DNA from: an uncultured Prochlorococcus sp. | Lineage (GTDB): Bacteria > Cyanobacteriota > Cyanobacteriia > PCC-6307 > Cyanobiaceae | Length of the DNA: 37,791 nt | Assembly (NCBI GenBank): GCA_902536455.1 | Contig: CACAXN010000011.1 | Location: 1-37,791 of the forward strand | Direction: 5' to 3' | Part shown: one piece after another, positions 30,016 to 34,959 of the stretch | How positions within the stretch are numbered: position 1 is the stretch's first letter | Layout: each line of letters begins with the position of its first letter | Program-made: the position numbers and the translations under genes | The notes under the pieces: generated by a model | Told to the model about the DNA's origin: nothing | Database searches by the model: none | What the model saw: the letters and a program-made list of their open reading frames with translations, nothing else

Positions 30016-30205
30016 TAAGACTTAATTTATTAGGTTTATCATGACAAACTAATAATATTAAGTCCACCTTATGTAACGTCATGAATATTAATTAAAAGTG
30101 AAAATATATTTTTTTGATTTCTTGGGAAATAAAAATTTAATAAATAATTGATCAAAATGTTTATGTAATTAAAATATAATTGATAACGAATTTTTTAAAT
30201 TACTC

Positions 30206-31048
30206 ATAGAAAATACTTTTTTAAAAATAACTAGTAAAAACAATAATCTAGTTAAAAGATTTAGATCATTTAAACGAGGATCATCTCCAAAAGATCAGGA
30301 CTTTTTTTGCATAGAGGGTACACATCTCATTCAAGAGTTGCTGAAGTCTGGTAAAAACCCCTCTAAGATTTTAGTTACCGAGAAATGGCTAAGAAAGAAT
30401 CAGAATCTAAGCAAAAAATTTCATAAGTCATTAATAAATATTGTCTCAGAGGAGGTCTTGGCATCAGCGATTTCTACAATTAATCCAGATGGGATAGCAG
30501 CTTTAGTAAAGATTTCAGTAATACCTAATTATGAATTTAATAGAAAAGATGATTTTGTTCTTGTACTCGACAGGATTCAAGATCCTGGGAATATGGGTAA
30601 TCTTTTTAGAACTGCTTTAGCTGCTGGTGTTGATTCAATTTTTTTAGCTGGAGGTGCGCATCCATTAAGCCAAAAGGTATTAAGGGCATCTTCTGGTGCA
30701 GTTTTTCATCTGCCATTTTTAAGATTTAGTGGAACTGAAGAAGATATATTAAATTCTTTACTTAAGTCTTTGTCTGAATTATCAAATGTTGGATTTAAGA
30801 TTTTCTCTACTAGTAGCCATAATAAAAGTTCCAAAAACCCTTCAAAACCATACTGGGAAGTTGATTGGTCTAGACGTACTGCATTAATCTTGGGTAATGA
30901 AGGTCAAGGAATACATAAAAAAATCCAAGAAGCTTTTAATGAAACAATTACAATTCCGCATAGTGAGCTTGTAGAATCATTAAATGTGGCTTGTGTTGCA
31001 GTTCCATTATTACTAGAACGGAAAAGAGTCGCATACAACTCTAATTAA
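30206..31048 (+). CDS. SpoU/TrmH-family RNA 2'-O-ribose methyltransferase, unusual start
   Basis: A SPOUT methyltransferase of rRNA or tRNA. The three knot motifs are clear: DRIQDPGNMGNLFRTALAAG, ALILGNEGQGI and SLNVACVAVPLLLERKR. The substrate-binding N-terminus is also recognisable in the same frame (SKNNNLVKRFRSFKRG, then FFCIEGTHLIQELL). The first ATG, GTG or TTG in this frame is a TTG at 30338, after that conserved part. The frame is open from 30173. I place the start at the ATA at 30206 as a compromise; an ATT at 30179 is also possible. Function is secure, the exact start is not. Confidence 0.8.
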   Translation: MENTFLKITSKNNNLVKRFRSFKRGSSPKDQDFFCIEGTHLIQELLKSGKNPSKILVTEKWLRKNQNLSKKFHKSLINIVSEEVLASAISTINPDGIAALVKISVIPNYEFNRKDDFVLVLDRIQDPGNMGNLFRTALAAGVDSIFLAGGAHPLSQKVLRASSGAVFHLPFLRFSGTEEDILNSLLKSLSELSNVGFKIFSTSSHNKSSKNPSKPYWEVDWSRRTALILGNEGQGIHKKIQEAFNETITIPHSELVESLNVACVAVPLLLERKRVAYNSN

Positions 31049-34126: not shown

Positions 34127-34486
34127 AAAATTTTTTAATTTAGGAATAATTAATTTAGAGGTGACAATCCCAATTATTTTTTCGTTATTGATTAATCCAA
34201 ATTTATTACTATCTTCGCTGAATTTAATATTGTCTCCTATAACCTCAACGTTATTTTGATTTACTGAATTTATCCTTTTTATTAGATTTTTATTTTTAAA
34301 TGGATGATTAAATATAACTATTTGTCGATTTTTAAGTATTGATTTATTCTTTTTATATTTTTTAAAAAATACAATATCACCTTCTTTTAGGTAAGGAAAC
34401 ATCGATTCACCACTAATAATCGCGGTTTTTCTTAAACCTAAAAAAAATAAAATAAAATCAAAAAAACTTTTGAAAATAACTCTGAT
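34085..34486 (-). CDS. sodX: Nickel-type superoxide dismutase maturation protease SodX, apparent ATC start
   Basis: An S26 signal-peptidase-like membrane protease that removes the propeptide of SodN. With the start at the ATC at 34484-34486 the product is 133 residues: an N-terminal helix (FKSFFDFILFFLGL), then GESMFPYL with catalytic Ser28, and Lys70 in NLIKRINSV as the general base. The only ATG lies right after Ser28 and would remove it. The ATC shares its A with the sodN TAA stop (TAATC), a frame junction that would be the common TAATG if one base differed. The C-terminus overlaps the nickel permease by 42 bases. Confidence 0.8.
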   Translation of the reverse strand: MRVIFKSFFDFILFFLGLRKTAIISGESMFPYLKEGDIVFFKKYKKNKSILKNRQIVIFNHPFKNKNLIKRINSVNQNNVEVIGDNIKFSEDSNKFGLINNEKIIGIVTSKLIIPKLKNFLIQKNRSTSLNPK

Positions 34487-34959
34487 TAACTAGCTTTTAC
34501 AAAAGCGTCTGATCTTCCTTTTGAAGCCCAGAAGATATTATGAATTTTTTCTACATAACTCATGAGTTCTTCAGCTTGGGCTAAGTCAATATTAACTTTG
34601 CATGCACTGCATAATTTGGCCGCTTTCCAAATGGTTTCATGTAGGTCTGGATAAGTTTCTAAGTGAACTGGTTTAAAGTAATCTGTCCACAAAATTAGAA
34701 TCTCTTTCTTTGTTTCTTTTGCTTGCTCTTCTTTAACTGCAACATATCTAGAAAATGTATTACTGTATGCGGCCCACTCTGCTGAATCAGTGCTAGAAGG
34801 AGCTTCTAATGCAATAAGTTTTTTTGTCATTGATAAAACTGCTTCAGCTGCAACCCTCGTAGATGCTGGGTCGTAAACACCACAAGGACCATCGCAGTGA
34901 GCATGGACAGTCATTGGGGATTTGTTATCTAGAAAAGAATTGATGAATTTACTTAACAT
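34486..34959 (-). CDS. sodN: Nickel superoxide dismutase
   Basis: Removes superoxide without using iron. A propeptide of 20 residues precedes the nickel hook HCDGPCGVYDPAS, in which His21, Cys22 and Cys26 bind nickel after SodX cleavage exposes the His. The helical body continues to residue 157, normal for the family. The gene is followed directly by sodX, and the permease is convergent with them. Using nickel fits life in low-iron ocean water. Confidence 0.97.
   Translation of the reverse strand: MLSKFINSFLDNKSPMTVHAHCDGPCGVYDPASTRVAAEAVLSMTKKLIALEAPSSTDSAEWAAYSNTFSRYVAVKEEQAKETKKEILILWTDYFKPVHLETYPDLHETIWKAAKLCSACKVNIDLAQAEELMSYVEKIHNIFWASKGRSDAFVKAS

Follow-up and report, generated by a model that had tools for sequence, protein, structure and literature searches.

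Sequence comparison points to a near-cognate start codon for sodX, the NiSOD maturation protease gene of Prochlorococcus

Ni superoxide dismutase (NiSOD) requires its maturation protease. In the window, the whole 37,791-nt stretch of DNA from an uncultured Prochlorococcus sp. analysed here (contig CACAXN010000011.1), the gene for the NiSOD precursor, sodN (34486–34959, minus strand; TIGR02753, 241.6 bits; PF09055, 167 bits), is directly followed on the same strand by a frame for this protease, sodX, which offers no conventional start codon for its full length. The locus thus raises the question of where translation of SodX begins.

Codons of sodX are given negative numbers here, counted from the Ser codon (TCG, 34405–34403) of the translated motif GES-M; this Ser we take to be the catalytic residue, by the Ser-Met motif of S26 signal peptidases. 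The frame is closed upstream by a TAG at codon -29 (34492–34490; TAG in this column in 152 of 215 genomes), after which it reads TTA ATC AGA GTT ATT TTC AAA ... GGT GAA TCG ATG. Between the TAG and the Ser codon there is not one ATG, GTG or TTG, as the original prediction had stated for the window. The translation contains a hydrophobic segment with conserved columns, FFDFILFFLGL (codons -20 to -10, 34465–34433), which is probably a membrane anchor. The full frame scored 72.2 bits against TIGR02754 (curated cut-off 63.25) and 50.5 bits against PF10502, again above the cut-off, also exceeded the cut-off of TIGR02227 (signal peptidase I), and adjoins sodN, as is expected of the SodX family. By these features its product would be the NiSOD maturation protease, a member of the S26 family with putative cleavage of the SodN propeptide. 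A mechanical, start-codon-based ORF finder reported instead a 105-amino-acid ORF from the ATG that follows the Ser codon (34402–34085; TIGR02754, 64.0 bits). This ORF has neither the Ser nor the hydrophobic segment, which bears out the earlier remark that the downstream ATG would yield a protease devoid of nucleophile and anchor.

Of the 266 genomes searched in the genus, 219 gave a SodX match, as did 82 of the 87 most complete ones. Loci were obtained for 218 genomes, the match in G255 (19.3 bits) being left out, and 216 were readable, the Ser region not being found in G238 and G154; junction codons were counted in 215 (G184 lacks the sodN end). Matches with an internal stop were kept in the counts; these are G137, G232 and G244, each with one in-frame stop within the match, possibly through decay or assembly error. 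No ATG, GTG or TTG preceded the Ser codon in 201 of the 216 genomes, and none of the 216 had a canonical start at or upstream of codon -18; the 15 exceptions carry TTG, ATG or GTG at scattered positions from codon -17 onwards. Among the best 80 of 158 titled sodX loci, which probably overlap the 216 genomes, 78 could be parsed, of which 75 lacked a canonical start and all 78 had ATT at codon -24. These loci include the records of MIT 9302 and MIT 9201, presumably cultured isolates, with the same bases at the sodX start region. Ten genomes of the genus were compared across the region of the window, and in all 10 the sodX frame has no canonical codon before the ATG that follows the Ser codon. 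The absence of a canonical sodX start across the genus is therefore a solid observation, and it supports the view, raised as one possibility in the original prediction, that a non-AUG start is needed.

The pattern of substitutions was used to locate the beginning of the protein, in 199 genomes with near-equal spacing (82–84 nt; 147 distinct). For codons -24 to -1, dN/dS was 0.34 in frame versus 1.35 and 1.20 in the shifted frames, and for codons -24 to -13 alone 0.47 versus 1.12 and 0.88. The part of SodX behind the Met gave 0.29, and the 5' leader of sodN, taken as a control, 1.05. On this evidence the segment ahead of the Ser is judged to be translated. Codons -30 to -25 showed no constraint at the protein level (0.91), and because constraint sets in just behind them, SodX would begin near codon -25 or -24.

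Both of these codons are largely of the near-cognate type. Codon -24 is ATT in 198 of 215 genomes, ATC in 11, ATA in 1, ACC in 2, AAC in 2 and GAA in 1, so that ATT, ATC or ATA stands there in 210 genomes; codon -25 is GTT in 99, ATT in 98, ATC in 5 and various others in the remainder. At one or the other position ATT, ATC or ATA occurs in 214 of 215 genomes. Four of the five genomes without an Ile codon at -24 have ATT at -25; the fifth, G016, has an ATT-type codon at neither position, and shows a changed N-terminus with TTG at codon -17. The sodX N-terminus of G016 (locus L071) reads KELFSKVFLILFFLGL, which an indel or a variant start might explain. The invariance of ATT at codon -24 is not diagnostic in itself, because the internal Ile codon -16 is equally fixed (ATT in 197 of 215). 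For the same reason the scarcity of ATA at codon -24 (ATA in one of 210 Ile codons, versus 1006 of 3227 after the Ser) was dropped as proof of a start. Seven genomes (G088, G006, G136, G108, G147, G069 and G079) carry a second in-frame stop before sodX, which begins 4–5 nt after the beginning of the sodN stop (1–2 bases between them) and is directly followed by ATT ATT, ATT ATC or ATC ATC and an open SodX frame, codon -24 being the second codon of the tandem.

We consider it probable that sodX starts at a near-cognate codon, most likely the AUU at 34477–34475 (codon -24), by reinitiation after sodN; AUU itself is the likely start on comparative grounds, in which case sodX would extend from 34477 to 34085. 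The original prediction had instead chosen the ATC at codon -27 (34486–34484), which does share one base with the sodN TAA, and at which initiation appears improbable. This ATC lies in the right frame and position in the window, and 116 of 215 genomes share TAATC in the same frame, but the others carry ACC (21), AGT (17), CTC (13), ATT (12), TAA (7) or other codons there, or a different frame, and the surrounding codons -30 to -25 are the unconstrained ones. Moreover, in the seven genomes with a second stop, that stop is downstream of the ATC position, which therefore cannot serve there. Nor was an ATG at this site, which the original prediction had named as part of a refuting result, found in any of the 216 genomes of the genus, although ATG just behind sodN is present in some other genera. 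Initiation at codon -25 (34480–34478), which directly precedes the AUU and is GTT in the window but ATT in roughly half of the genomes, would agree with the ATT or ATC found at this codon in the seven second-stop genomes, and finds a parallel in Streptomyces sigR, reported with a conserved GTC start that is GTT in two species (PMC5472188). Yet codon -25, split between GTT and ATT, is less conserved than codon -24, and diverged genomes have TCT, TAT or AGA there while retaining ATT or ATA at -24. Such a start is unlikely in our estimate; as start codons, -25 and -24 are inseparable on the present sequence data.

The remaining explanations dispense with a near-cognate start altogether. Low-rate readthrough of the sodN stop, or frameshifting, could produce a SodN-SodX fusion, and sodX does lie in the sodN frame in 27 of 215 genomes. 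All three frame relations occur, however, and in the seven second-stop genomes the extra in-frame stop makes sodX unreachable by one readthrough or shift, which argues against a fusion and makes it very improbable. Translation of a shorter SodX, begun at the ATG after the Ser or at some canonical codon within the hydrophobic segment, would fit the 105-amino-acid ORF and the canonical codons scattered from codon -17 onwards in 15 of 216 genomes, but is hardly credible given that codons -24 to -1 are constrained as protein and that the ATG product lacks the Ser. The one-base change or sequencing error that the original prediction had allowed for has in its favour that the window's assembly consists of 41 contigs and has a completeness of 63%; an error of sequencing or amplification in this one genome is nevertheless excluded for practical purposes, because the canonical start is missing in 201 of 216 genomes, and in the MIT 9302 and MIT 9201 records as well.

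According to the preferred reading, initiation at AUU, a ribosome would end translation of sodN at the TAA (34488–34486), remain on the mRNA and reinitiate at sodX 8 nt downstream, without a Shine-Dalgarno site and whatever the frame relation. With the sodN stop as reference, sodX lies in frame 2 in 166 of 215 genomes, in frame 0 in 27 and in frame 1 in 22. A quick tree built for 213 genomes requires at least 16 switches between these frames, a number that may be too high because the tree is short and perhaps poorly resolved. On the assumption that codon -24 is the start, the distance to it from the sodN stop is 6–11 nt in 213 of 215 genomes and 2 and 3 nt in the other two. Being indifferent to frame and held at a nearly fixed short distance from the sodN stop, sodX fits termination-reinitiation. 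None of the motifs GGAG, GAGG, AGGA and AAGG was found in the 15 nt tested in any of the 215 genomes. A hairpin predicted in the window over the sodN stop and the ATT (z -1.25) was dropped from consideration, since no consensus pair was obtained across the junctions in 17 picked from 134 distinct ones. As AUU is a weak start, it would give a low output, that is, a small, catalytic amount of membrane-anchored SodX protease per SodN. The original prediction had supposed that weak initiation keeps the protease scarce relative to SodN; a weak, sodN-coupled start is a likely consequence of the present reading, and scarcity of SodX itself might follow from it. Which codon is used, the route by reinitiation, the weak output and any benefit of such a start are all inferred.

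Beyond the genus, the sodN-sodX pairs of other picocyanobacterial genera and of other cyanobacteria belong to the same families and, wherever a sodX was located downstream of sodN, share its gene order; their starts give a different picture. In 40 genomes from other genera of the family, 11 had no canonical triplet before the sodX Ser codon and 16 none at or upstream of codon -20; where one was present in the open frame (29 of 40), it often lay within the last part of sodN. Of 30 further genomes from other genera, 28 could be parsed by the SodX motif; 27 of these had a canonical triplet in the open frame, often within the hydrophobic part or inside sodN, and one had none. An ATG follows the sodN stop by no more than a few codons in G334, G293 and G271 among the 40 genomes, and in G405 and G318 among the 30. 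A common near-cognate sodX start was not seen in the genomes of other genera. In the genera g5 and g34 of these 30 genomes (loci among L414–L438), which appear to resemble Synechococcus, CTG in the sodX frame overlaps the sodN TGA (CTGA) in 16 of 19 genomes, the remaining three comprising one with GTG (GTGA) and two in a different frame. This CTG may be a start or may merely be the end of a TCC Ser codon. Were the final codon of sodN TCA rather than TCC, CTGA would become ATGA. In other cyanobacterial families, a stretch of about 1.5 kb gave a SodX motif behind sodN in 8 of 18 genomes, seven of the motifs being 111–231 nt from sodN and all eight having a canonical triplet in frame. Across the family the picture is thus mixed; a clean pattern is seen in the window's genus alone.

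Seven frames of the window with a late first start were subjected to a leader dN/dS test with 11 sequences each, the window included. Constraint was found for sodX (0.42 versus 1.17 and 0.93 in the shifted frames) and for a SpoU-family methyltransferase frame on the plus strand (30173–31045; 0.38 versus 1.24 and 1.17), and no clear constraint for sodN (1.18), 13769–13095 (0.81), 22751–21306 (1.12) and 28285–26843 (1.01). The seventh, a GPH/MFS_2 symporter frame (6412–4946, minus strand) whose first canonical codon is a TTG at codon 25, gave 0.49 versus 1.74 and 1.50 from 7 distinct sequences with few changes. It was provisionally taken as ordinary in view of these few changes, its beginning in tRNA-like sequence and an MFS_2 match only from residue 44.

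The SpoU-family gene (PF00588) probably starts at an AUA (30206–30208) and would then extend from 30206 to 31045. In the open frame from 30173, residues 24–110 match PF22435, and the first ATG, GTG or TTG in the window is a TTG at codon 56, inside the conserved substrate-binding domain. With a stretch here labelled the IEGT stretch as reference point, 20 of 25 genomes of the genus have no canonical start ahead of it, versus such a start in 5 of 5 genomes from other genera. At codon -36, counted from this stretch, 23 of the 25 genomes have ATA and the other 2 have ATT, and GAA comes next in all 25. In these genomes codons -35 to -1 gave a dN/dS of 0.37 in frame versus 0.99 and 0.78 in the shifted frames, and codons -47 to -37 gave 1.10, with in-frame stops there in 7 of 25. 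The large upstream frame (30021–28648) is on the opposite strand, so that this start is not accounted for by coupling to an ordinary gene. A short ATG TTT ATG TAA is located just upstream of the AUA.

One window of 38 kb thus holds two candidate genes of this kind, sodX with AUU and the SpoU gene with AUA, the latter with no co-directed gene of ordinary size ahead of it. With this second case, two genes so far, a broader use of AUU, AUC and AUA becomes a real possibility. We propose only tentatively that these codons are evolutionarily maintained starts in these Prochlorococcus, and that, in genomes so small and AT-rich, a few percent of genes may have them and be truncated or overlooked in annotation. 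If such starts are common, the annotated start sites of Prochlorococcus will have to be revised, and the fidelity of start-codon choice could be tested directly in it. For sodX, annotation may already be affected. The products from the first ATG of five sequences scored 61.1 to 64.5 bits, close to the TIGR02754 cut-off of 63.25, and one of them, MIT 9302 (61.1), fell below it, which makes the naming of sodX by pipelines fragile; sodX of Prochlorococcus may thus be mis-annotated. In a 2021 survey, 10 of the 55 cyanobacteria that have sodN were listed as lacking sodX, including four picocyanobacteria without another SOD, and it was suggested that sodX may not have been sequenced there (PMC8346466). 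An unrecognised start codon is possibly another cause of sodX being counted as missing. A search of SodX in phage records found none, and among the open-licence papers listed by a literature search there was no report of such a sodX start.

Among known systems, sodX resembles Streptomyces sigR, in which, as reported, a conserved non-canonical start, GTC, is repressed by IF3, low output matters and the start is misannotated in available genomes (PMC5472188). In contrast to sodX, whose 15 nt tested contain no SD-like 4-mer and thus no strong ribosome-binding site, sigR is described with the conserved ribosome-binding site AGGAGGTG, and it is the upstream gene of its pair, whereas sodX is downstream of sodN (PMC5472188). 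The absence of a canonical start, conserved in relatives, is common to sodX, sigR and infC. Escherichia coli infC has an ATT (AUU) start, according to the same source (PMC5472188). The autoregulated gene of IF3, infC shares AUU with the start proposed for sodX; the infC start is ATG in 16 of 16 genomes tested here, and this precedent is thus absent from them. Pairs described as translated by termination-reinitiation (PMC10666635, PMC12548453) have, like sodN-sodX, a stop and a start that overlap or lie a few nt apart. The starts described for those pairs are ATG, GTG and TTG, with ATT mentioned as rare, at about 0.3% of ATG in E. coli (PMC10666635, citing Hecht 2017), whereas sodX would combine the very short stop-start distance of a coupled pair with an AUU start.
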